Assembly (NCBI RefSeq): GCF_020511115.1 | Contig: NZ_JAJAVH010000004.1 | Span: 62,001 to 126,000 of the forward strand | DNA from: Luteimonas panaciterrae | Lineage (GTDB): Bacteria > Pseudomonadota > Gammaproteobacteria > Xanthomonadales > Xanthomonadaceae | Length of the DNA: 64,000 bases | Direction: 5' to 3' | Shown: positions 32,118 through 50,213 of the stretch, piece by piece | Position numbering within the stretch: position 1 is the first letter of the stretch | How the letters are laid out: the number at the start of each line of letters is the position of its first letter | Translations under genes and position numbers: made by a program | The notes under the pieces: generated by a model | Databases searched by the model: none | What the model was told of the DNA's origin: nothing | What the model saw: only the letters and a program-made list of their open reading frames with translations

Positions 32118-33554
32118 ATGAAGCTTCCCTTCTCGAACGCGATCTTCGCATTCGCGCAGCCGGCGACGATCCGCTACACGATCGTGATGGCGCGGCTGGC
32201 GCATTTCGCCATTGCCGCGCTGCCAGGGCTGTTGATCGGCTTGGTGCCCACGACGGCGGCATCCATCGAATTCCCGCAGGCGTTGGCCCTGTCGATCATC
32301 GCCGGCCTGCTTTGCGTGCTGATACTCGGCATCGTCGGCGTCTACGGCGGCCTCTTGTTCAGCAACCGGCTGCTGATCCGGCGGTTCTTTTTCGCGTGGA
32401 CGGCCTCGTTCGGCCTGTTGCTGGCGGTGCATTACCCCTTCCGCTTCCTCGAGCACGTGCCGCGCAATTCGCTGTTGGCCTGGTATCTGCTGTCCTTGTC
32501 GCTGCTGGTGCTCAGCCGGCTGACGATGCTGGCGTTCTTCCAGCGACGGGTCCAACGCGGCAAGTTCATCCAGCACTCGGTGATCCTCGGCATGACCGAG
32601 AACGCGATGCATCTGGCCGACCACGTGCTCAGCCACGCGGATGTGGGGGCCGGCCTGATCGGGTTCATCGACGATCGCCATCCTTCGCGTCTGCCTCCGC
32701 ACCAGTTGCCGCACCTGGGCGGGATGGACACGCTGGAGCGCTTGGTGCGGAACGGCGAAGTCGACCAGATCCTGCTGGCGCTGCCGATCTCGGCGTACGA
32801 GCGCAACCATCATTACGTGCAACGCCTGCGGCAACTGCCGGTGCAGGTGCTGCTGGTACCGGACATGGCGATGTTCCGCATCGCGCACCGTCGCGTGGTG
32901 CCGGTGGCCGGGGCGCCGATGTTCGTGATCGCCGAGCCGCCGCTGCAGGGCTGGGCACCTCTGATCAAGCGCTGTGAGGACATCGCCATCTCGACTCTGG
33001 CGTTGCTGCTGCTGTCGCCGCTGATGCTGCTGGTGGCGATCGCGGTGAAGCTGGAATCGCGCGGACCGGTGCTGTTCCGGCAGAAACGCTACGGCTACAA
33101 CCACCGCCTGATCGAGGTCTACAAGTTCCGCTCGATGTACCACCACCTGCGCGACGAGCATGCCGGCGTACAGACCGGCAAGAACGATCCGCGTGTCACC
33201 CGGGTCGGGCGCTTCATCCGCAAGACCAGCCTGGACGAGCTGCCGCAGCTGTTCAACGTGCTCGCCGGCAGCATGTCGATGGTGGGGCCGCGCCCGCACG
33301 CGACGGCGACGAAGGCGGCCAACGTCCTGTTCGAGGACGCGGTGAAGGAATACGTCGCCCGTCACCGGGTCAAGCCGGGCATCACCGGCCTGGCTCAGGT
33401 CCATGGCTACCGCGGCGAGACCGACACGATCGAGAAGATCCAGCGGCGGGTCGAGTACGACCTGGAATACATCGAGAACTGGTCGCTGTGGTTGGACCTG
33501 TCGATCCTGCTGCGGACGCTTCCGGCCGTCTTGTCGGCCAGGGCTGCGTACTGA
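32118..33554 (+). CDS. undecaprenyl-phosphate glucose phosphotransferase (GumD/WcaJ type)
   Basis: From the ATG at 32118 there are 478 residues; a GTG at 32076 behind a G-rich stretch is an alternative. Four N-terminal membrane helices (about 20-130), a nucleotide-binding-like middle ([26 protein letters not shown]) and a fifth helix near 285 precede the catalytic PHPT domain: [43 protein letters not shown] and GPRPHA. The enzyme starts repeat-unit assembly by moving a sugar phosphate, usually glucose-1-P, to undecaprenyl phosphate at the inner membrane. It opens the polysaccharide operon. Confidence 0.93.
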
Positions 33555-33658: not shown

Positions 33659-34372
33659 ATGATCTTCGCCTCCCACTTTGGCAAATTCCCGGCGTGCTGG
33701 GCATTGCTTCTGGCCGTCGCGCTGTCGACGCCGGTTCCCGCCCAGCAGGCGGTGCCGGCGAGCGCGCCCGCGGAAGCGGTACAGACGGCCGACTACCGGA
33801 TCACCCAGGGCGACGAGCTGGCGCTGAAGTTCTTCTACGTGCCCGAACTCAACGAGACCGCGACGGTGCGGCCGGACGGCAAGATCAATCTGGCGCTGAT
33901 CGGCGACATCCAAGCCGCCGAGCTGACGCCCGAGCAGTTCGCGCAACACCTGCGCGTGGCCTATGCGAACCATCTCCGCCATCCGGAGGTGACGGTCGAG
34001 ATCGAAAAAGGTTTCGCCCGGCAGCAGGTGTTCGTCGGTGGCGAGGTGGCGCATCCGGGCATGCAGCCGCTGACGCCGTCGTTGACCCTGATGCGCGCGC
34101 TGATCGTCGCGCAGGGATTGAAGGACACCGCGGCGCCCAACCGTGTGGTGATCCTGCGCCGCGATGCCACGGGCGCCTCGCAGGTGATCGAAACGAATTT
34201 CGCCAGGCAGATGCGCGGCAAGGGCGGCGCCGATCCGGTGCTGCAACCCTACGACGTGGTGTTGGTGCCGCCATCCCGCGTCGCGGGCTTGAACAAGTGG
34301 ATCGATCTGTACATCCGCCGCAACCTGCCGATCGGTTTTTCCTACAACATCAACGATCGCGGGGAGTACTAG
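33659..34372 (+). CDS. polysaccharide export protein (Wza/GumB type)
   Basis: The 237-residue protein has a signal peptide (to about residue 28, cut near VPAQQ) and no lipobox Cys, so like GumB variants it may not be lipidated. The Poly_export domain spans DYRITQGDELALKFFYVPEL and VRPDGKINLALIGDIQAAEL; an SLBB domain follows (QVFVGGEVAHPGMQPLTPSL). The tail LNKWIDLYIRRNLPIGFSYN is typical of the family. It should form the periplasmic/outer-membrane conduit for the polymer together with the co-polymerase encoded 3 bp downstream. Confidence 0.93.
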   Translation: MIFASHFGKFPACWALLLAVALSTPVPAQQAVPASAPAEAVQTADYRITQGDELALKFFYVPELNETATVRPDGKINLALIGDIQAAELTPEQFAQHLRVAYANHLRHPEVTVEIEKGFARQQVFVGGEVAHPGMQPLTPSLTLMRALIVAQGLKDTAAPNRVVILRRDATGASQVIETNFARQMRGKGGADPVLQPYDVVLVPPSRVAGLNKWIDLYIRRNLPIGFSYNINDRGEY

Positions 34373-34375
34373 CGC

Positions 34376-35866
34376 ATGGATGATGCGAACCCCGGTTCGG
34401 CAGGCGTGAGCGGCAACGGCGTCCTGTCGCGGCCGTACACGCTGCGCGAGGCGCTCGAAATTCTTTTCAGGGATCGTCGCCGCATCCTGCTTGCGTTCGC
34501 GATCAGTCTTGGCGTGGTCCTGATCGCGGCATTGCTGATGCCCGCGCGTTACGTGTCCGACGCCAGCCTGCTGGTGCGGCTCGGGCAGGAATATGTCTAC
34601 GTGGCCGAAGCCAGCAGCGGCAACAGCGGCGCCATGCCGCTGGCCTTCAGCCGCGACGAGGCCTTGAATGCGGAAGCGCAAATCCTGGCAAGCCGCGATC
34701 TGATCGGCCGCGCGATCGGCAAGATCGGCATCGCGCGGTTGTATCCCTCGCTCGCCAAGGGCGAGGACGATCCACGCAAGCCGAAGCTCGACCAGGCGGT
34801 GGAACAGTTCCGCAAGAGCTTCGAAGCCGAGCTGCTCAAGGATTCGACCGTGCTGCACCTGAGCTTCGCGCACAAGGATCCGGCGGTGGCGCAGCAAGCG
34901 TTGCGCGTGCTGGTGGAAACGTACCTGGATCGCCGCCGCGCGATCTTCTCCGATGCCCATGTGCGTTTCCTCGGTGAGCAGGTGGCCGAGGCGGGCAAGC
35001 GCCTGCAAGCGGCGGAAGCGCGCCTGGCCGATTTCAAGCAGGAACACGGCATCGTCAATTACGAACAGCAGCTCGCGCTCCTGCTGCAGCAGGGCAACGA
35101 TCTGGAAAACCGCCTCAACGAAACCAGCCAGCAGGCGGAAACCGCCAGCGCGCGCGCCAAGAAGCTCAAGCAGCTGGCGGACAAGACGCCGGCGAATCTG
35201 GTCGTCTACAGCGAGACCCTCGGTGATCCGCAGACGCCGCGACAGTTGCTCGATCTGCGTCTGAAAGAGCAGGGGCTGAGCGCGCGTTATGTCGACGACA
35301 ACCCGCTGGTGCAGAACGCCAGGAAGGATGTGGCGACCGCCGAGAGCTTCCTATCGCAGCAGCAGCGCAATCCGCCCAAGAACGTCCGCACCGCTCGCAA
35401 CCAGGTGCTCGATCAGGCCGAACTGGACCTGATGCGCGCCGCATCCGACGAGTCGGCGCTCGCCGGCGCACGCAAGGCGTTGCAGGCGCGCCTGGAACAG
35501 CTCCGTCGTCGTGCCGAAACGCTCTCCGAGCAGCAGGCGCGCCTGAACGCGCTGAGCCTGGAACAGAAGCTGCTCGAGGAGAACTACGGCAACTACGCCC
35601 GCAAGCTGGAAAACGCGCGCATCGACGAGGCGCGCGAGCAGAAGGAGCGCACCAACGTCAGCGTCTTGCAGAGCGCGAGCCGGCCGCTTGCATCGAAGAG
35701 CATGCGCCTGCCGCTGCTGGCGATCGGATTCCTCTTCAGCCTGGGCGTGGCGCTGGTCGTGGCGTTCCTGTCCGAGGCCTTGCGCACGAGTTTCCAGATG
35801 CCGGAACAGGTGGAACGCGGTCTGGGGGTTCCGGTGCTCGCGACATTGCCACGAGTGGGAGGTTGA
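34376..35866 (+). CDS. polysaccharide co-polymerase / chain-length determinant (Wzz/GumC type)
   Basis: The 496-residue inner-membrane protein has an N-terminal helix at about 35-55 (ILLAFAISLGVVLIAALLMP), a large periplasmic part with long coiled coils (about 190-430; EQVAEAGKRLQAAEARLADF, LEQLRRRAETLSEQQARLNA) and a C-terminal helix near 445-465 (LPLLAIGFLFSLGVALVVAF). This is the Wzz-GNVR layout. It lacks a cytoplasmic tyrosine-kinase domain, as GumC does; a kinase-like domain is found instead in the 39495-41681 protein. It sets chain length and links polymerisation to export. Confidence 0.93.
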   Translation: MDDANPGSAGVSGNGVLSRPYTLREALEILFRDRRRILLAFAISLGVVLIAALLMPARYVSDASLLVRLGQEYVYVAEASSGNSGAMPLAFSRDEALNAEAQILASRDLIGRAIGKIGIARLYPSLAKGEDDPRKPKLDQAVEQFRKSFEAELLKDSTVLHLSFAHKDPAVAQQALRVLVETYLDRRRAIFSDAHVRFLGEQVAEAGKRLQAAEARLADFKQEHGIVNYEQQLALLLQQGNDLENRLNETSQQAETASARAKKLKQLADKTPANLVVYSETLGDPQTPRQLLDLRLKEQGLSARYVDDNPLVQNARKDVATAESFLSQQQRNPPKNVRTARNQVLDQAELDLMRAASDESALAGARKALQARLEQLRRRAETLSEQQARLNALSLEQKLLEENYGNYARKLENARIDEAREQKERTNVSVLQSASRPLASKSMRLPLLAIGFLFSLGVALVVAFLSEALRTSFQMPEQVERGLGVPVLATLPRVGG

Positions 35867-35867
35867 G

Positions 35868-36986
35868 ATGCGACATCTAGTCCGGATTCTCTGCGCGCTG
35901 CTGCTGGTGGCGAATGTCGGAACAGCGATGGCCGCGGGTACCTTCCAGCGCGGCGTCAATCTGAGCCGATGGCTGGATACCTACGCCAAGCTGCCGATGT
36001 CGGATCAGGAGTTGCGCGACTTGCGCGCCGCGGGATTCGATCACGTGCGCCTGCCGATCGATCCCGTCGCGCTGGGATGGTCGCCGGAGCAGGGACCGGG
36101 TCTGCGCGATGCGCCGAAGTTGCGCGCGGCGATCGCCGCCGTGCTGGCCGCGGACCTGGATGTCATCGTCGACATGCATCCGGAGCCCGGGATTCAACAG
36201 CCGATCATCGAAGACGAGCATGCCGACGACTTCGTGGCCTTGTGGACCTGGTTGGCCACGCAGCTCAAACACACGCCGTCCAATCGCGTGGCTTTGGAGT
36301 TGCTCAATGAGCCGCAGTACAGCGGATTCGGCGGTTCGATCCGGTGGAGCCGATACCAGAAGCGTCTGCTGCAGGCGGTGCGCGCCGTGCTGCCGCGGCA
36401 TCAGGTCATCGTCAGCGGCCGTCAGACCGGTTCGCTGGAAGGGCTGCTCGAACTGTCTCCACTCGCTGATGCAAACCTGATCTACAGCTTCCATTTCTAT
36501 CTTCCGGGCATCTTCACGCATCAAGGCGCGGACTGGATGCGGGACGTGCCCTGGACCACAGCGGGGCATTGGCGCAACGTGCGCTATCCGTCCATGTTGG
36601 CGATGTTGTTGCTCCCGCACATGGACGGGACCGGCGACCGGAGGCAGGCAAGGGAAGAAATCTTCCAGTATTTCAAGACCGGTTGGGACCGCAGGGAAAT
36701 CGCGGCGCAGTGGCGGCCGCTGGTGGAGTGGGCGCGGAAATACCCGGGCGTGCGCATTCGTCTGGGCGAGTTCGGCGTGATTCGCGCCGGTGTCGATCCG
36801 CTGTCGCGTTACCTCTGGATCGCGGACGTGCGTTCGCAGGCGGAAGCCAATGGCTGGGGCTGGACGCTATGGGACTACGGCGCCAATTTCGGTATCACCA
36901 CTCGCAGCAATGACAACGGCATGCCGCGCGGTGTGCTGGAACCACAAGCGCTCTCCGCACTCGGGTTGGGCCGGCACCGGCGATGA
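35868..36986 (+). CDS. secreted glycoside hydrolase family 5 (cellulase-like)
   Basis: The ATG at 35868 directly follows the co-polymerase stop and gives 372 residues. The signal peptide is MRHLVRILCALLLVANVGTA. The GH5 core shows RGVNLSRWLDTY, LRAAGFDHVRLPID, acid/base Glu148 in LELLNEPQY, YSFHFYLPGIFTHQG and nucleophile Glu301 in RIRLGEFGVIRAG. The family cleaves beta-1,4-glucans and related polymers. Inside this operon it probably trims or releases the exported polymer in the periplasm, as polysaccharide lyases and hydrolases do in other exopolysaccharide loci. This hints at a beta-1,4-glucan-like backbone. Its end overlaps the polymerase gene by 4 bp. Confidence 0.92.
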   Translation: MRHLVRILCALLLVANVGTAMAAGTFQRGVNLSRWLDTYAKLPMSDQELRDLRAAGFDHVRLPIDPVALGWSPEQGPGLRDAPKLRAAIAAVLAADLDVIVDMHPEPGIQQPIIEDEHADDFVALWTWLATQLKHTPSNRVALELLNEPQYSGFGGSIRWSRYQKRLLQAVRAVLPRHQVIVSGRQTGSLEGLLELSPLADANLIYSFHFYLPGIFTHQGADWMRDVPWTTAGHWRNVRYPSMLAMLLLPHMDGTGDRRQAREEIFQYFKTGWDRREIAAQWRPLVEWARKYPGVRIRLGEFGVIRAGVDPLSRYLWIADVRSQAEANGWGWTLWDYGANFGITTRSNDNGMPRGVLEPQALSALGLGRHRR

Positions 36987-38314
36987 ATATCGCACTGGCC
37001 AATGCCGGAGTCATGCATCGGCGCGCGGTGTACGCGCTGACGCTGCTCGCCTTGGCGGTCTACATGACGCTGGCATCGCCGGCATTGACGGCATTGGGCA
37101 TTCCTTATTCGTCGTCCAACGGCAGCATCGTCTTCAAGTTGCATCCGGGAACCTACCTGCTTTGGCTGACCTTGGCGTTGTCGTTGTTCGCCGAGGGAAA
37201 TCCGTTGACGGCGCTGGTCAGGCGCCTGCGCGAGATGCCGCTGCTGGTCGCTTATGCCTCCGGCATCGCAGTGGCCTGCCTTTACTCGTTGTCGCGTTAC
37301 GGCATGTCCGGAATGGCTTTCTACGTCGACACGTTGACGATGCCGGCGGTGATCGTATTGATCCTGTGCCGCTTCGATCAGGCGCAATTGCGGGGCGTCT
37401 TCCGTCTGATGCTGTCGCTATTGGTGATCAATGCGGTGATTGCCCTCGGGGAAGCCGCGGTGCGGCGGACACTGATCCCGTTCAGCATTGGCGACGCGGT
37501 CGTGACCTTCAACAGCGGCAGCGACTTTCGCGCCACGGCACTGCTCGGACATCCGCTCGAGAACGCACTGGTGACCAGCGTCATGCTGCTGGCGGCGCTG
37601 GATGTGCCGATGCTGGCCATGCGTCGGCTGGGGATCAGTATTTTGTTCGTATTGTCGCTGCTGGCGTTCGGCGGTCGTACCAGCTTCCTGTTGAGCACGA
37701 TCGTGTTGCTGGCGTACGCGACGGTGCGATGCTTGTGGGGCCTGCGGACAGGCAAGTACAGCTATTTCCGAACCGTTGGCGTGTTGACCGTCGTGGTATT
37801 GGCGTCGCCGGTGGCGACAGCATTGGTGTGGGCGAGCGGCTTGGGCGAGCGCGTGTTGAGCAAGCTGTATCTGGACGACAGCGCGGAGGTGCGCCTGCGC
37901 ATCTACGATGTCTTCGACTACATCGATGCCTCGGGGCTGTTCTTCGGCTTGTCTCCCGAAAGGATCCAGCTCGTGTCCGCCTGGATCGGGCTGGACCCGA
38001 CCTTCGAGACGATCGAGAACTTTTGGCTGTTGATGCTGCTGCAGCTCGGCGTGTTCGTCTTCATCGTGTTTTGCGCGGGATTGCTGAGCGGCATGCTGCT
38101 GCTCTGGCGGCGCAGCGGTCTGGGAGGGCGTCTGGCGCTGTTCGTGTTCTTGCTTACCGCGTCGACGACCAACTCGCTCGCGTCCAAGAGCAGTTCGCTC
38201 ACCGAGTTGTTCGCGATCCTGTATTGCCTGGCTGCCTTCGCCGTTCCCACCGTCATGTCGGGTGGCACGCGCGGCACCGGAATTCGTCCTTCCTTCCGCA
38301 CGGCGACGATCTGA
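36983..38314 (+). CDS. putative polysaccharide polymerase (Wzy/VpsF-like membrane protein)
   Basis: The 443-residue protein has about 11 membrane helices and a large loop between later helices (residues about 285-345, LGERVLSKLYLDDSAEVRLR with SWIGLDPTFETIENFW). This is the topology of O-antigen polymerases and ligases. VpsF-like proteins of exopolysaccharide loci have similar size and text. It overlaps the GH5 gene by ATGA and the next glycosyltransferase gene by 1 bp. Polymerase is the most likely role because no other Wzy candidate is present in the locus, while initiating transferase, flippase and co-polymerase are. Confidence 0.82.
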   Translation: MNIALANAGVMHRRAVYALTLLALAVYMTLASPALTALGIPYSSSNGSIVFKLHPGTYLLWLTLALSLFAEGNPLTALVRRLREMPLLVAYASGIAVACLYSLSRYGMSGMAFYVDTLTMPAVIVLILCRFDQAQLRGVFRLMLSLLVINAVIALGEAAVRRTLIPFSIGDAVVTFNSGSDFRATALLGHPLENALVTSVMLLAALDVPMLAMRRLGISILFVLSLLAFGGRTSFLLSTIVLLAYATVRCLWGLRTGKYSYFRTVGVLTVVVLASPVATALVWASGLGERVLSKLYLDDSAEVRLRIYDVFDYIDASGLFFGLSPERIQLVSAWIGLDPTFETIENFWLLMLLQLGVFVFIVFCAGLLSGMLLLWRRSGLGGRLALFVFLLTASTTNSLASKSSSLTELFAILYCLAAFAVPTVMSGGTRGTGIRPSFRTATI

Positions 38315-39498
38315 TGAACGCCATCCATCTCCTGCCGCTGGAGGAAGAAGCTTCGGCCGAACGGCAGAAGCGTGCCTTGTTCCTGATCAACGGCGAGCAC
38401 TATGCCGGCGCAGAGCGCGTACAGGATCTGCTCGCGCTGCATCTGCCTTCGTTCGGATGGCGGGTCGACTTCGTCTGCCTGAAGCCGCGCGCGTTCGCGG
38501 ATGCGCGCGAGGCGCGTGGCAGCAATGTGATCGACTTGCCGATGCGCTCGCATTTTGATCTGGCGCCGGTACGCGAAGTCGCGCACCTGCTGCGACAAGG
38601 CGGTTACGACGTGCTGCATACGCACACCGTTCGGTCCCTGTTGATCGGCTATTTCGCATCGGGCCGCTCCGGGAAACCGATGGTGCATCACGTCCATAGC
38701 CGCACCGATCGCGATACCGAGAACGCGCGTCGCAACGCATTCAACAGCATGGTCCAGCGTTTTGGACTGCGCCGTGCACGGCGTCTGATCGCGGTATCAG
38801 GTAGCACGGGCGAGTACCTGCGGGAGCTCGGCTACGAAGATTCGCGCATCAGCGTGATTCCCAATGGAGTGCCGTCCGCGAAGGTGGCGCGGGACTGGCA
38901 TGCACCACGGTCGACGTGGACGATCGGAATGGCGGCATTGTTCCGGCCGCGCAAGGGCGTCGAAGTATTGATCGAGGCGTTGGCGGCCTTGCATGCACAA
39001 GGGCGTCCAGTGCGCTTGCGTGCGGTCGGTGGTTTCGAGAACGAAGCCTATCGTCAGCAGGTATTGGCCTTCGCCGAGGCCAAGGGTGTGTCGGCGCTGA
39101 TCGATTGGACAGGATTTACCCGCGATGTCACCGGAGAGTTGGCCAGGATGGATCTGTTCGTGGTGCCGAGCCTGTATGGCGAAGGATTGCCGATGGTGAT
39201 GCTCGAGGCGATGGCGGCCGGGTTGCCGGTGGTGGCGAGTAGCAACGAGGGCATGCCGGAAGTGCTCGATTACGGTGCCACGGGCGTCCTGGTGCCGCCC
39301 GGCGACGTCGTGGCGTTGACGCGGGCGCTCGATCGGCTGATCGAAAGTCCGGACCACGCCCGTGTCCTGTCGCAAGCCGGGTTGCAACGGCAGCGCGAAC
39401 GTTATTCCGAAACGGCGATGGCGAGGCAAGTCGCGGCGGTCTACCGCGAACTGTGTCAGCAGTCATCGCATCAAGAAAATCGCAGGAAGGCGGGATGA
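38314..39498 (+). CDS. glycosyltransferase family 4
   Basis: The ATG at 38314 overlaps the previous stop (TGATG) and gives 394 residues. GT-B fold marks are ALFLINGEHYAGAERVQDLL near the N-terminus, YDVLHTHTVRSLL, ISVIPNGVPS, GMAALFRPRKGVEVLIEALA and the donor-binding ELARMDLFVVPSLYGEGLPM, MLEAMAAGLPVVASSNEGMP. It should add one sugar to the lipid-linked repeat unit at the cytoplasmic face. The donor sugar and linkage cannot be read from sequence. Confidence 0.93.
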   Translation: MNAIHLLPLEEEASAERQKRALFLINGEHYAGAERVQDLLALHLPSFGWRVDFVCLKPRAFADAREARGSNVIDLPMRSHFDLAPVREVAHLLRQGGYDVLHTHTVRSLLIGYFASGRSGKPMVHHVHSRTDRDTENARRNAFNSMVQRFGLRRARRLIAVSGSTGEYLRELGYEDSRISVIPNGVPSAKVARDWHAPRSTWTIGMAALFRPRKGVEVLIEALAALHAQGRPVRLRAVGGFENEAYRQQVLAFAEAKGVSALIDWTGFTRDVTGELARMDLFVVPSLYGEGLPMVMLEAMAAGLPVVASSNEGMPEVLDYGATGVLVPPGDVVALTRALDRLIESPDHARVLSQAGLQRQRERYSETAMARQVAAVYRELCQQSSHQENRRKAG

Positions 39499-41681
39499 AT
39501 CCGCTTGCATCGGCACCCAGCATCGCCTTTCTTCTGGGCGTTCCGTTTCATGACGTCAGCATGGAGGAGACGCTCTCGCACATCGACGGGATGATCCAAG
39601 CCGGCAAACCGGGATACCTGGCCACGGCCAATCTCGATTTCGCCGAGCAGGCGAGCCGCGATGTGGAATTGCAGCGCATCCTTTTCGATGCCGATCTGGT
39701 GTTGTGCGATGGGACGCCACTGGTCTGGATCTCGCGCTGGTTCGGCGCCGGGCTGCGGGAGCGCGTGGCAGGCGCAGACTTGTTGCCGGAACTGTTCGCG
39801 CATGCGGCAGACAAGGGGTATCGCGTGTTCTTTCTCGGCGGCACGGAAGATGTCCTGGAAGCCGCTCGCAAGAAGATGGAGGACGCGCATCCCGATCTCG
39901 TGATCTGCGGTACGTACTCGCCGCCTTTCTCCGGGCTGATGGACATGGACGACGAGCAGATCCGTCAACGTGTCGTGGAAGCCCGGCCGGATCTTCTTCT
40001 GGTCGCGTTCGGTTGTCCGAAACAGGAGAAGTGGATCTATCGCAACTATCGCGCGCTGGGCGTGCCGTGTTCGATCGGAATCGGTGCCAGCCTCGACTTC
40101 GTCGCGGGAAAATTCAAGCGTGCTCCGGTGTGGATGCGCAAGGCCGGGTTGGAGTGGCTGTTCCGATGGCTGCAGGAACCCAAGCGCCTGTTCAAGCGCT
40201 ACGCCCGGGACTTGGCGTTCCTGGCGCATATGCTGCCGAAGCAGCAATGGATGTCACTTCGCATGCCGTGGACGGCGCAGTCCTCACCGCCGGATCCCGC
40301 GGGGCTGGATGCGGCGGAATATCTGAGTTGGCGCGGCGCGATCGATACGTCGGCCGTATCGCAGAACAAGTTGCAGCAACCCGCCAACCGCGACAAGTCT
40401 TCCATCCTGCTCGATTTGTCTGCCGCCACTGTTATCGATAGCGCCGGGCTTGGGGCGCTGGTCGAATTGAACAGGAAAACCGAGCAGGCGGGCGGGCAAC
40501 TTGTGGTCTATCGGCCGGCTCCGCCCGTGGCCGAGGTCATGCATTTGCTCAACATCGATCGGCTGATCCAGATCGCTCCGGACGATGCCACGGCGAGCGC
40601 GTTGTTGAAGCAGGGCGGACATGCCTTGTCCAGCCAGTTTCACCATGACGGGGCGAATCGGAATCTGCTCTGCACATTGCAGGGCGTGCTGACGGAGCGG
40701 ACCTTGGCCGGGCAGCACGAGAACGTTTTTCGGCAGTGGGCGCAGGCACACGATGCCGTCACGTTGGCGTTCGATCTGTCGGCGATTCGGTTTATGGACA
40801 GCAGTGGTCTGGAATTCCTGCTGGGATGCGTCGAGATGGCGAAGCAGCGTCCAGGAGGGTCGTGCCGTATCGACGGCATCAGCCCGAATGCATTGAACGT
40901 GATCGGACTGGCCGGGCTTGAAGGCAGTTTCGGCCTGGGCAAGACAGTGCGAAGCCGGGGCGATTCCGGAAAACGCCGTGAGCGGGATATGCCGAGGATG
41001 GAAGCCCGGGAACTCGAAGCTGCGGTACGCAATGGAGCCGTAGGAAATAAGACAGGAGTTTTACAAGTGTCTTCGAATGTGGAGTGCGGCGAGGCGACAT
41101 TCCCGGCAGCCAGCGGCTATCTGGTGAATCTGCTGCAGCGTATCGATCAGGCGATCGGTGTCGTTCCCGGCAGACTCGTGCAATTCATCGCGGCCGGGCG
41201 TTGCGAGGGTGTGAGTTCCATCGCCGGGAGTTACGCCGCGGCGTCTGCGCAAATGTATCGACGCAAGGTACTGCTGTTGTCGGACGAATTCGGCGGCCAA
41301 GAGGAGATCGCCTTGCCCGATCTGGCGCAAGGCGATGGGTTTGCGGAAGTGGTTTCCCGCGCTGCCGGCGTCACGCGGATGTGCCTGCTCAGTCGCAACG
41401 CCGGATACGAAAGCAGCTATGCGGTCCTGGCCGACGGGAACGCGTGGAAGCGGCTGTGCTCGTCGTTCGATGAAGTGGTGATCGACGCCAAATCACCGTT
41501 CGCGATGCTGTTGGCGCCTCGTGCCGACGGCGTGGTCGTCGTGATCGAAGCCGACGCCACGCCCGCATCGGCGGCGCGCAAGTTGCTCGAAGACCTCGCG
41601 GCGGTGAACGCCAAGGTGCTGGGCACCATTCTCAACAAGCAGCGCTCCTATTTGCCGCGGGTGTTGCGTGAGCGTTTCTGA
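39495..41681 (+). CDS. fusion: GT26 (WecG/TagA/CpsF) glycosyltransferase, two STAS domains, degenerate BY-kinase-like domain
   Basis: The ATG at 39495 overlaps the preceding stop and gives 728 residues. Residues about 8-235 are a GT26 transferase (GVPFHDVSMEETLSHID, TANLDFAEQA, DLVLCDGTPLVWISRWFGAG, RVFFLGGTEDVLEAA, FGCPKQEKWIYRN). Residues about 278-370 are STAS 1 (ILLDLSAATVIDSAGLGALV) and 389-480 STAS 2 (LAFDLSAIRFMDSSGLEFLL), each with the Ser that can be phosphorylated. Residues about 529-728 look like a Wzc/CpsD ATPase: LVQFIAAGRCEGVSSIAGSY sits where a Walker A (EGKTT) belongs, VLLLSDEF where VLLIDAD belongs, FDEVVIDAKSP at Walker B and VLGTILNKQRSYLP at the end. The P-loop Lys is lost, so it is probably a pseudo-kinase. 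It may couple sugar transfer to regulation. Confidence 0.88.
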   Translation: MNPLASAPSIAFLLGVPFHDVSMEETLSHIDGMIQAGKPGYLATANLDFAEQASRDVELQRILFDADLVLCDGTPLVWISRWFGAGLRERVAGADLLPELFAHAADKGYRVFFLGGTEDVLEAARKKMEDAHPDLVICGTYSPPFSGLMDMDDEQIRQRVVEARPDLLLVAFGCPKQEKWIYRNYRALGVPCSIGIGASLDFVAGKFKRAPVWMRKAGLEWLFRWLQEPKRLFKRYARDLAFLAHMLPKQQWMSLRMPWTAQSSPPDPAGLDAAEYLSWRGAIDTSAVSQNKLQQPANRDKSSILLDLSAATVIDSAGLGALVELNRKTEQAGGQLVVYRPAPPVAEVMHLLNIDRLIQIAPDDATASALLKQGGHALSSQFHHDGANRNLLCTLQGVLTERTLAGQHENVFRQWAQAHDAVTLAFDLSAIRFMDSSGLEFLLGCVEMAKQRPGGSCRIDGISPNALNVIGLAGLEGSFGLGKTVRSRGDSGKRRERDMPRMEARELEAAVRNGAVGNKTGVLQVSSNVECGEATFPAASGYLVNLLQRIDQAIGVVPGRLVQFIAAGRCEGVSSIAGSYAAASAQMYRRKVLLLSDEFGGQEEIALPDLAQGDGFAEVVSRAAGVTRMCLLSRNAGYESSYAVLADGNAWKRLCSSFDEVVIDAKSPFAMLLAPRADGVVVVIEADATPASAARKLLEDLAAVNAKVLGTILNKQRSYLPRVLRERF

Positions 41682-43290
41682 GACAAGGCGGGATTTCAGG
41701 CTCGTCGTGCTGTTGCCCGCCGGGCAGGGGCGCGTTTGGCAAGCGCGAGCCGCGCAGGTATTAGCCGCGTTTCCGGGCATTGAGGTGCAGGTTTGCCATG
41801 TGGATGTCGACTCCGCTGGCGAAGACAGGGATTGGACCGAGTGCGCGAGGGCGATGCCGGAACTGCGCGAGATCCCCATGCCGCCAGCCGACGAGGTGCC
41901 GCGAGGGATGCATTGGAATGTCGTCGTGGATCTCGCCGGTGTTGAGTCTTCCGAGGTGGAGGCATGGAAAGCGCGAGGCCGGCACGGCCTCTGGCAGCCA
42001 CGCGATGCGCAAGGCAGGCATCTGGCGGATGCCTTCGCCTGTCATGCGTCGATCTGTTCCGGAAGTGGCGGCGAACTGTTTCTGGTGCGCAATGGCGTGG
42101 ATGTGCTCAATACGGTTCGCTTCCATGCGAGTCCGGACTATCGGCGCTCCTTGACGCGGTTGTACGCGCAGACCGAGTGGTTGATCAAGGGCGCGCTGCG
42201 CCCCTTGTTGCTGGGCGGCGGAAGAGCGATTGCGACGAAATTCTCGCCGCGCCCGGCGCCGAGTCGATTGCGACGCAAGCTGCAAGGCAGGGCAGGTGCC
42301 GTGCGCGCGCGGCTGCGTCGGATCGCCGCGAAATGCTTGAGCGAGAACTGGATGATCGGAGTCATCGAGGCGCCGATCCACAGTCTATTGTCGTCGTCGT
42401 CACAACCGAAAGTGAAATGGCTCGGCAAGCGCGCCTCAACTCACTATCACGCCGACCCGTTCGGGATTCCCGGGCAGACGAACAAGCTGTATTGCGAGAC
42501 ATTCGACTACCACAACGGTGATGGACGCATCGAACTGCTCGAACTGGATGGGCGGGATGCCATCGAAGCCATCGCGCCGGCTTCCTTGCCGCTGTCCGGA
42601 CATTTGTCCTATCCGTATTTGTTCAATCATGAGGGGCGTCTCTACGGCATTCCCGAGACGGCGAAACAGCGACACTGCAAGCTCTACGAGATCGACGGTA
42701 ACGGGCACTGGCACTTCGTCACCACGCTGTTGGAAGACGTCGCCGCCGCCGATGCCACGCTGTTCTTCTGGGATGGGTTGTTCTGGCTGGCCTACACCGA
42801 TATCGCGCTAGGCGAATTCGACAACCTGTGCCTGAGCTGGTCGCGGAATCTGACCGGTCCATGGCAGCCGCACGCCGGCAATCCGGTCAAGATCGATCAC
42901 CGCAACTCGCGCTCGGCCGGAACGCCGTTCGTGCACGATGGTGTGCTGTACCGACCCGCGCAAGATTGTAGGTCCGCCTATGGGCAGGCGACGGTGATCA
43001 ACAGGGTGGTGCAGTGCACGCCGTATCAGTATCTGGAAGAGCCCGTGCGGCGCCTCTGTCCTGATCCGTTCGGAGCCAATCCCCATGGCCTGCATACGCT
43101 TTCGGCCTGGGGTAGCCGCACTTTGGTCGACGGCAAGCGCTATGTGATGAATCTGCATGAGCTGCGTCGCAAGATCAATCGCAGGTTGCGAGGACGTGGG
43201 AGGGCCGACGAGGGGCTGGTGCCGAAGCTCGCCGGCAAGGATACGACCACCAATGAGCGCGCTGGCCCGCTCTGGAAGAACGTGCCGTGA
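41668..43290 (+). CDS. protein with GINT1-N-like five-bladed propeller domain, probable sugar-active enzyme
   Basis: The GTG at 41668 overlaps the previous gene by 14 bp and gives 540 residues. Residues 1-230 have a Rossmann-like start (FRLVVLLPAGQGRVWQARAA) of no clear family. Residues about 250-500 form a beta-propeller like glycoside hydrolase family 43 and the N-terminal domain of glucosamine inositolphosphorylceramide transferase: HYHADPFGIPGQTNKLYCET, LSYPYLFNHEGRLYGIPETA, DATLFFWDGLFWLAYTDIAL and RSAGTPFVHDGVLYRPAQDC. Related proteins occur beside glycosyltransferases in polysaccharide loci. No signal peptide is seen. A role as glycosyltransferase or modifying enzyme is inference. Confidence 0.72.
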   Translation: MSVSETRRDFRLVVLLPAGQGRVWQARAAQVLAAFPGIEVQVCHVDVDSAGEDRDWTECARAMPELREIPMPPADEVPRGMHWNVVVDLAGVESSEVEAWKARGRHGLWQPRDAQGRHLADAFACHASICSGSGGELFLVRNGVDVLNTVRFHASPDYRRSLTRLYAQTEWLIKGALRPLLLGGGRAIATKFSPRPAPSRLRRKLQGRAGAVRARLRRIAAKCLSENWMIGVIEAPIHSLLSSSSQPKVKWLGKRASTHYHADPFGIPGQTNKLYCETFDYHNGDGRIELLELDGRDAIEAIAPASLPLSGHLSYPYLFNHEGRLYGIPETAKQRHCKLYEIDGNGHWHFVTTLLEDVAAADATLFFWDGLFWLAYTDIALGEFDNLCLSWSRNLTGPWQPHAGNPVKIDHRNSRSAGTPFVHDGVLYRPAQDCRSAYGQATVINRVVQCTPYQYLEEPVRRLCPDPFGANPHGLHTLSAWGSRTLVDGKRYVMNLHELRRKINRRLRGRGRADEGLVPKLAGKDTTTNERAGPLWKNVP

Positions 43291-48797: not shown

Positions 48798-50213
48798 TCA
48801 GAGCGTGCGCAGCTTTCCCAGATGGCCGCGATAACCGAGCGCGAGCGTGGCGATGTACACCAGGCCTCCCAAGGCGACGGCCGCGAGCAATTGCATCCAG
48901 CCAGTCAGCGGTGGCAGCACGGACAACGCGAGCGACATCACGGCGGTCGCCAGCACGATGCGGAGCAGGTGGCGGCCCGGGAACGGCATCTTCAATCTGC
49001 CGATCGCGATCGCGAAGGCGAGCAGGGCGCCGACCGACACCGCGATCAGCGCGCCCCAGGCCGCGCCCACCACGCCGAGGGTGCGCAATCCGACCGCGGC
49101 ACCGATCAGGAACAGCAGCGTTTCCAGGATGTCGAGCGCCAGCGTCCAATTGGTTTTCTGCGCGAGCAGGAACGCCTGGTTGGCGAAGTGACTGCGCAGG
49201 TTCTTGACCAGGCCCGCGAGTGCGGCCAGTGGCAGGATTTGCAACGTCACCGCCACGTAGGGCTCGGACACCGCGACTTTCGTCAGTGCGGGCGTCAGCA
49301 GGATCAACCCCGCGACAGTCGGTAGCAGCACACTGCACAGCAGTACGCCGTTCAAGGACAGCTGATGCATCGCGCGATCACGCGCGCCGCTGGCTTCCAG
49401 CCGCAGAGCGAGAGGAAACGCGGCCGCCGTGACCAGCATCGCCGCGAACGAGCAGGCGCGCTGTCCCAGCGTCCAGCCCACCGAGAACATGCCCACCGCG
49501 GCGATGCCCAGCTCGTGTTCCACCACGAAGCGGCTGCCATTGCCGGGCACCCATGCGAGCAGGCCGCTGGCGGCCAGCGGCAGTCCATAGCGATAGGCGT
49601 GATGCAGTGTCGCCGGATCGGCGGCCTGCAAGCGAAAATTCACGCGCAGCTTGGGAAGGGCTAGGATCAGCGAAATCGTCTGCGCGATCGCATACGACGC
49701 CAGCACATGCATCGGCTCCACCGGCACCAGACTGGCCCAGAGCACGCCGATCAGCAGACCAACCACCGGGCCGACGGTCTGCAGCACGGTATAAGTGCCG
49801 ACGATGCCATCGGCACGGGCACGTTCGGCCAGATGCGTGCAGTACGAGCGCGTGAAGGAGAAAGCGAACAGAACAACCAGCAGTTCGCGGCTGGGCCATT
49901 CGTGCATGACGTAGCGCATCAGCATCAGCAGCGCGGCCGCCTGCAGCATCGCATTGGCGAGGAACAGCCGTGTCTCTATGACGTCCATCCGCTGTCGCAA
50001 AGCGGTATCGGCGCTGGGCAGGAATCGCAGCAGGAAGTACGACCAGAACGACAGCAGCAACAGATACACCGCTTCCTGCGCCGCCATCGCAAGCGTGAAC
50101 AGGCCGAATGCGTCGGGATCGAGCCAGTGCGTCCACAGCACGATGGCCACGAGCTGCGCCAGCGGCCCCAACAACTGGGCCGGCAGGTACAGGACGGTTT
50201 GACGGATCAGCAC
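48798..50213 (-). CDS. oligosaccharide flippase (Wzx/MOP superfamily)
   Basis: The 471-residue protein has about 12-14 membrane helices of the polysaccharide transporter family: LLGPLAQLVAIVLWTHWLDP at the N-terminus, GLPLAASGLLAWVPGNGSRF in the middle, and LLPTVAGLILLTPALTKVAV. It should flip the undecaprenyl-linked repeat unit to the periplasm before polymerisation. It is the only Wzx candidate, though it is on the opposite strand to the rest of the locus, heading a group with the JmjC-like and GNAT genes. Confidence 0.9.
   Translation of the reverse strand: MLIRQTVLYLPAQLLGPLAQLVAIVLWTHWLDPDAFGLFTLAMAAQEAVYLLLLSFWSYFLLRFLPSADTALRQRMDVIETRLFLANAMLQAAALLMLMRYVMHEWPSRELLVVLFAFSFTRSYCTHLAERARADGIVGTYTVLQTVGPVVGLLIGVLWASLVPVEPMHVLASYAIAQTISLILALPKLRVNFRLQAADPATLHHAYRYGLPLAASGLLAWVPGNGSRFVVEHELGIAAVGMFSVGWTLGQRACSFAAMLVTAAAFPLALRLEASGARDRAMHQLSLNGVLLCSVLLPTVAGLILLTPALTKVAVSEPYVAVTLQILPLAALAGLVKNLRSHFANQAFLLAQKTNWTLALDILETLLFLIGAAVGLRTLGVVGAAWGALIAVSVGALLAFAIAIGRLKMPFPGRHLLRIVLATAVMSLALSVLPPLTGWMQLLAAVALGGLVYIATLALGYRGHLGKLRTL

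Follow-up and report, generated by a model that had tools for sequence, protein, structure and literature searches.

The described systems closest to the one considered here are pairs in which a pseudokinase with the bacterial tyrosine kinase (BY-kinase) fold works with a polysaccharide co-polymerase (PCP-2) that has no kinase domain. In Myxococcus xanthus, the BY pseudokinase EcpK interacts with the kinase-less co-polymerase EpsV, an interaction modelled via the 25-residue tail of EpsV, and the sections of that report covered here treat HfsB and HfsA as a pair of the same kind, with the pseudokinase and the kinase-less PCP-2 protein both needed for the polymer (PMC12004946). Control of a gatekeeper enzyme of glycosyltransferase family GT26 has also been published, for HfsJ and HfiA, in the part of the source covered (PMC3900383). 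Here we describe a gene of Luteimonas panaciterrae in which a GT26 transferase, two STAS domains and a putative BY pseudokinase are joined in one frame. It lies in a stretch of 64,000 nucleotides (hereafter the window; contig NZ_JAJAVH010000004.1, positions 62,001 to 126,000; G+C 64%) from a genome of 4.09 Mb in 109 contigs that is 99.99% complete.

Architecture of the fusion protein

The gene and its parts are as follows.

39495..41681, + strand: 728-residue fusion (GT26, STAS, STAS, predicted BY pseudokinase); open frame, with a full-length relative, P0002, 89% identical
39495..40244, + strand: GT26 (WecG/TagA/CpsF) domain and C-terminal appendage, residues 1-250 (PF03808; alignment with TagA 7mpk)
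40311..40610, + strand: STAS domain 1, residues 273-372, with Ser316 at 40440-40442 (PF01740; SpoIIAA serine-motif alignment)
40611..40955, + strand: STAS domain 2, residues 373-487, with Ser436 at 40800-40802 (second stretch of PF01740, and PF13466)
40956..41099, + strand: linker, residues 488-535 (low G+C at third codon positions, GC3; low identity to P0002)
41054..41069, + strand: possible internal start, AGGAG, 8 nt, GTG (41067, residue 525), in-frame
41100..41678, + strand: predicted BY pseudokinase domain, residues 536-728, with the lost Walker A at 41205-41219 (structure prediction, phmmer, alignments)

An open reading frame check showed 728 uninterrupted codons on the + strand, with AGGAAGG 4 nt 5' of the ATG (39495) and an alternative upstream GTG at 39453. 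The frame overlaps both neighbouring genes, a GT4 gene at its start and a GINT1_N-type gene at its end, and therefore lies within one operon. The four-domain order put forward in an original prediction for this DNA, GT26-STAS-STAS-BY pseudokinase, is confirmed by profiles and by the predicted BY-kinase fold.

The first domain belongs to GT26 by its match to PF03808 (213.3 bits against a cut-off of 27.4), and TagA of T. italicus (7mpk) matches it at E 5.5e-41. In the part of the TagA report covered here, the catalytic residues and the active-site arginines of the C-terminal appendage are named, and the appendage is a membrane tether required for activity (PMC6493773). Residues T44, D72, R224 and R231 of the fusion align with TagA T37, D65, R214 and R221, while the fifth named residue, TagA Arg224, pairs with Lys234 and not with an arginine. 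The residue counts given here and below refer to 120 proteins, the listed matches among 892 relatives found at E<=1e-3. Because the key residues of TagA align, and all four columns are identical in 120/120, the GT26 enzyme of the fusion should be active.

Behind it, PF01740 finds two STAS stretches with the serine motif. Ser316 aligns with the first Ser of FMDSSGLG of SpoIIAA; in the SpoIIAA chain 1tid_B the matching position is Ala, taken here to be a phospho-site mutant. Both serines are intact, as had been claimed, and the Ser316 and Ser436 columns are each Ser in 119 of the 120 proteins.

The fourth domain

A structure model, the check that the original prediction had called for, returned a BY-kinase fold for the fourth domain. 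The motifs do not indicate an active BY-kinase: Walker A reads EGVSS with Val573 in place of Lys, the loss that had been pointed out, and the first Asp of Walker A' is replaced by Ser596 in all three alignments, its second Asp being Glu in two of them and falling within a gap in the third. The tail (NKQRSYLPRVLRERF) carries one Tyr (Y719) and is thus not a Tyr-rich C-terminal tail; its last 15 residues hold that one Tyr and five Arg or Lys. A BY-kinase fold without the Walker A Lys, the Walker A' motif and the Tyr tail is what characterizes a BY pseudokinase.

In a phmmer search against 5.8 billion sequences, the domain matched two HfsB-like proteins (E 1.4e-4); a Brevundimonas protein that bears the name hfsB shares 29% identity with it across an alignment of 231 columns, of which 53 are gaps. 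The P-loop EGVS occurs in 121 of 123 aligned rows, which comprise the best 120 of 827 matches, mostly from one clade, together with the window protein, P0002 and P0121. By its sequence and predicted structure, the fourth domain is a BY pseudokinase of the HfsB kind.

The fusion is also present in P0002, which has 728 residues and the same four parts. Identity between the two proteins is 94.8% in GT26, 88.0% in STAS domain 1, 82.6% in STAS domain 2, 70.8% in the linker and 90.2% in the fourth domain; judged by this pair, the fourth domain is conserved and the linker less so.

Exopolysaccharide operon and co-polymerase

The operon runs in the order WcaJ-like, Wza-like, GumC-like, GH5, VpsF-family, GT4, fusion, GINT1_N, GT4, acyltransferase and GalE genes, and from these matches we read it as a Wzx/Wzy exopolysaccharide locus. 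The genes that matter here, with a flippase gene beyond the operon, are listed below.

34376..35866, + strand: GumC-like co-polymerase (PCP-2) without kinase domain (TIGR03007, E 1.7e-35, under its cut-off)
32118..33554, + strand: initiating phosphoglycosyl transferase, WcaJ-like (PF02397, 234 bits)
33659..34372, + strand: outer-membrane export protein, Wza-like (PF02563, 75 bits)
36983..38314, + strand: VpsF-family protein (NF038256, 264 bits)
38314..39498, + strand: GT4 glycosyltransferase, overlapping the fusion start (PF00534, 115 bits)
41668..43290, + strand: GINT1_N-type protein, overlapping the fusion end (PF24793, 88.7 bits)
48798..50213, - strand: Wzx-type flippase, beyond the operon on the opposite strand (PF01943, 43 bits)

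The co-polymerase without a kinase domain that had been predicted is thus present in the operon of the fusion, as a kinase-less PCP-2 partner. It matches PslE 9v75 (E 6e-27) and Wzc (E 9e-7), and its C-terminal residues (PEQVERGLGVPVLATLP) align with both; its cytoplasmic tail, at about 35771-35863 (+), is the presumed docking site of the pseudokinase. The genome's Wzc-type BY-kinase, with a P-loop GAGKT and a Tyr-rich tail, is encoded on another contig (contig 15, 23396-24007; L131). The VpsF-family protein (36983..38314) is, to judge from its family, a probable Wzy-type polymerase. Between the genes for the co-polymerase and the VpsF-family protein, the operon encodes a protein of the GH5 cellulase family (35688-36986). 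PF24793 is the N-terminal family of plant glucosamine inositolphosphorylceramide transferase 1, here found in a bacterial exopolysaccharide operon.

Comparison with described systems

HfsB of Caulobacterales, whose partner is HfsA, resembles the fourth domain in being BY-kinase-like, in its EGVS P-loop without Lys and in its kinase-less co-polymerase partner, as far as the sections covered go (PMC12004946). It is, however, a stand-alone protein of about 233 residues that keeps DAD in Walker A', whereas the window domain is fused behind GT26-STAS-STAS and has Ser for the first Asp. EcpK shares with the window domain the loss of Walker motifs, the absence of a Tyr-rich tail, a basic C-terminal end and a co-polymerase with a short cytoplasmic tail in the same sections (PMC12004946); it differs in standing alone and in having lost Walker B as well, where the window domain keeps Asp664, and the likeness is one of features, not of direct sequence comparison. 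The pseudokinases of the third PCP-2 subfamily (EcpK, HfsB) stand alone, and the window domain departs from them by its fusion, although an internal start is possible. Given the published pairing of pseudokinases with PCP-2 proteins and the kinase-less co-polymerase in the operon, we infer by analogy that the fourth domain would be the operon's EcpK or HfsB equivalent, carried on the GT26 enzyme.

Two further systems resemble other parts of the fusion. HfsJ, the GT26 gatekeeper of the holdfast pathway, works alongside a BY pseudokinase of that pathway, and its C-terminal residues bind the inhibitor HfiA (PMC3900383, PMC6372794); its control is in trans, by HfiA and cyclic di-GMP, and the parts of these reports covered mention neither a STAS nor a pseudokinase fusion. 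In all4160 of Anabaena a STAS domain is likewise joined to a polysaccharide glycosyltransferase, but at the N-terminus, according to the portion of the source covered (PMC8256260).

GT26-STAS-STAS enzymes and partner-switch genes

The first three domains are not special to this locus. Among the 120 listed relatives, 118 are 466-528 residues long, which leaves no room for a fourth domain, and relatives without the fusion terminate near the end of STAS domain 2 (about residue 487). These 118 other, unfused proteins share the first 487 residues at 43-57% identity, with both serines. One source names some relatives 'exopolysaccharide biosynthesis WecB/TagA/CpsF family protein/anti-anti-sigma factor', and the GT26-STAS-STAS part is therefore already known to annotators. 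What sets the locus apart is the fourth domain, and the fusion is a variant that brings together transferases of the GT26-STAS type and BY pseudokinases, each a known kind. A literature search, with subscription papers (among them those on HfsAB and co-polymerase classes) outside its reach, found no study of GT26-STAS control and no description of a transferase-pseudokinase fusion; no paper within its reach combined 'STAS domain', 'WecG' and 'exopolysaccharide', nor did a structure paper on PslE turn up.

Relatives are encoded by 552 stretches of named genomes, of which 80 served as loci for neighbourhood counts. By title these are mostly from Verrucomicrobia, Chloroflexota, Armatimonadota, Acidobacteria and Firmicutes; by profile coverage 42 have both STAS domains, 24 reach one and 14 show GT26 only, some being cut by contig ends. 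Upstream of the GT26-STAS gene, a GumC-like gene and a stand-alone EGKTT BY-kinase are present in L063, L088 and L109, whose titles give Chthonomonadales or Chthonomonadaceae, and in L062 and L087, titled only 'bacterium'; in these five loci the kinase lies about 1.2 to 1.5 kb ahead of the GT26-STAS gene. Near the GumC-like gene of L080 (1451-2275, Chloroflexaceae) and L081 (5280-5915, Bryobacterales) are kinase-like genes that have lost the P-loop Lys and are possible further BY pseudokinases (A2 profile about 30 bits each; the GumC match of L080 is weak). With GumC-like and kinase-like genes beside GT26-STAS genes, the partners fused in the window thus occur close together, unfused, elsewhere. 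Two loci of the window's genus (L122, 1498-2262; L123, 1264-2031) encode kinase-like proteins of about 255 residues with a P-loop GEGRSQ, Arg standing for Lys.

Partner-switch genes adjoin the unfused enzymes in several genomes. In genome G708, whose protein is 46% identical to the window protein over residues 53-243, two genes come after the one for the GT26-STAS-STAS protein of 521 residues, with gaps of 40 and 3 nt by the listed starts (L169; contig 80, 264-3573): first a receiver-SpoIIE phosphatase (PF07228, 133 bits), then an RsbW-type kinase of 135 residues (PF13581, 88.5 bits). The kinase is the only strong PF13581 match in that genome, the next being a 566-residue frame at 33 bits. Of 13 Chloroflexota loci, 10 have a SpoIIE and then an RsbW gene at 2 to 4 kb on the downstream side of the GT26-STAS gene (L061, L065, L066, L069, L073, L074, L076, L079, L085, L086); among the three that do not, L064 breaks off 2.3 kb past its GT26-STAS gene. 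The order in L061 is initiating transferase, GT26-STAS-STAS, a fusion of a nucleotidyltransferase with a second sugar transferase, a STAS-only protein, SpoIIE and RsbW. L041 (Verrucomicrobia; genome G202) and L159 (genome G345, of the phylum of L035's genome) carry RsbW and SpoIIE fused in one protein, at a frame-to-frame distance from the GT26-STAS gene of 577 bp in L041, with a receiver gene between, and of 687 bp in L159, with a STAS-only gene between; this fusion is the only strong PF13581 match in G202 and one of two in G345.

Across the 80 loci, SpoIIE and RsbW are both within 5 kb in 11/66 STAS-bearing loci against 0/14 loci with the transferase only, and any partner-switch gene is present in the available flank of 17/66 STAS-bearing loci. 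Loci with partner-switch genes have Ser at 316 and at 436 in 16/17 cases, and the remaining loci in 34/51 and 24/51, respectively, in a grouping of our own that leaves L042 and L050 (SpoIIE gene 9 kb off) in the rest and adds L159 and L169 to the first group. Several observations count against a partner switch in the family: the contrast of 11/66 with 0/14 is weak alone and confounded by phylum; most Verrucomicrobia loci have no SpoIIE-RsbW pair in the available flank, some flanks being short; many of the 51 remaining loci are without STAS domain 2 or are from Acidobacteria; the Asp before Ser436 is lost in most of the partner-switch Chloroflexota loci; and L169 has lost Ser316. The weight lies instead with the Chloroflexota loci (10 of 13) and with genomes G708, G202 and G345; taken as a whole, the findings are fair evidence that partner-switch kinases act on the STAS domains of this family. 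The GT26 proteins of five Acidobacteria loci (L067, L072, L077, L089, L091) have a STAS-like tail that has lost the serine motif (TAAGAG, TTTGAG, TAAGLG by alignment column).

Proposed mechanism and alternatives

The mechanism that we put forward, with about even confidence, is that the fusion is an early GT26 enzyme carrying the pathway's BY pseudokinase behind tandem STAS domains, and that the pseudokinase docks on the GumC-like tail and so couples both steps. The enzyme would act at the lipid-II step of a Wzx/Wzy exopolysaccharide pathway, with the STAS pair as a regulatory platform between transferase and pseudokinase. The operon's own co-polymerase, which lacks a kinase domain, would offer its short cytoplasmic tail as the docking site, and the pseudokinase domain would scaffold the co-polymerase without tyrosine phosphorylation, as proposed for EcpK-EpsV and HfsB-HfsA. 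Because the pseudokinase is covalently joined to GT26, the committing sugar transfer may then be held at, or gated by, the complex of co-polymerase and polymerase, and the STAS domains, directly behind the membrane-binding GT26 appendage, would in all likelihood tune its activity. That the dead kinase domain serves for docking had been suggested before, and the precedents of EcpK and HfsB lend it support by analogy, as far as their source is covered (PMC12004946). Against this mechanism stand the retention of Walker B Asp664, the poor prediction of the middle of the modelled fourth-domain segment (segment residues 111-150), the presence of the fusion in only two full-length proteins among the relatives listed (the window protein and P0002), and the literature covered, in which BY pseudokinases are stand-alone or fused to a co-polymerase and none is fused to a transferase. 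The internal AGGAG-GTG site also weighs on this side, as the gene may yield other products besides the full-length fusion, which need not be the main one.

That site is central to another explanation, a possibility of some weight that we nonetheless think doubtful, in which loss of a stop has merged a GT26-STAS-STAS gene with the pseudokinase gene that came after it; the pseudokinase would still be made as a free HfsB-like protein from GTG 41067, the fusion being tolerated. AGGAG or GGAGG stands 5-10 nt upstream of 0/344 internal in-frame starts in nine other operon genes and of 2/67 in the fusion frame (the second a TTG at residue 607). P0121 (204 residues) begins exactly at residue 525, where P0002 has Met, but its source contig is 1.3 kb long and it may be merely cut. 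The linker has a GC3 of 0.52 (0.75 in the whole frame, 0.74-0.77 in the domains) and is the fastest-diverging part, and P0122 is a stand-alone relative of the fourth domain (40% identity). Yet the frame stays open across the linker in two proteins 11% apart and so has been kept, and a helix predicted with low confidence at residues 504-512, together with P0122's own N-terminal stretch, suggests that the linker may partly be old coding sequence. From the AGGAG-GTG site, the Met of P0002 and the start of P0121, the pseudokinase may also be made free; an in-cis fusion and a free product are compatible with each other.

A classical partner switch, in which an RsbW-type serine kinase outside the locus phosphorylates the STAS domains, a PP2C phosphatase reverses this and the transferase is switched, would agree with both serines of the window protein and with the REC-SpoIIE, RsbW and STAS-only genes described above, but it is unlikely here, as no such kinase is visible in the source genome: the best of 11 HATPase_c_2 (PF13581) matches is a histidine kinase at 29.5 bits, where the scanned cassette proteins reach 56.9 to 88.5 bits. 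The five best matches were scanned and are all histidine kinases; six more lie in frames of 402-1183 residues. The single SpoIIE match is a generic PP2C (PP2C_2), and the only other STAS match, a 654-residue frame, is by its length probably a SulP transporter. RsbW/PP2C neighbours, present at some other loci, are not found in the window. The STAS serines have thus survived here with no kinase in sight, which would mean that a different kinase fills the role or that the two STAS domains now work through the fused pseudokinase. The phospho-switch that had been envisaged for the enzyme was right in kind and is plausible for this enzyme family, as RsbW-type kinases and SpoIIE phosphatases lie beside its genes in some genomes other than this one. 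The proposed link to a signalling kinase outside the locus is not supported, the known partner of such pseudokinases being the co-polymerase of the same pathway; taken as a whole, the earlier interpretation is partly supported. A purely structural role, in which STAS and pseudokinase serve oligomerisation or membrane placement of the transferase and neither step is gated, seems to us improbable. The basic C-terminal end, like that of EcpK, would suit it, and control of TagA has been proposed via a dimer-monomer change and membrane association in the part of its report covered (PMC6493773); but conservation of each STAS serine in the relatives goes beyond structural need, and the family of the fourth domain has a known co-polymerase partner.

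Significance

A broader interpretation, which we offer only tentatively, is that GT26-STAS-STAS proteins are cross-phylum transferases and a direct output of partner switching, with RsbW and SpoIIE acting on STAS and no sigma factor involved, and that the lineage of the window has swapped kinase and phosphatase for an in-cis pseudokinase, the one that belongs to the co-polymerase, so that the assembly state of the machinery for export and polymerisation would control the first committed transfer. To our knowledge, the coordination of inner-face repeat-unit synthesis with polymerisation and export is an open question. If the proposed mechanism is true, a single protein may physically link the beginning of polymer synthesis to its end, and a transferase and a pseudokinase in one chain make the coupling of synthesis to export directly testable. 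In the wider family, the RsbW and SpoIIE genes beside GT26-STAS genes point to partner switches that control an enzyme and not a sigma factor, in at least two phyla.

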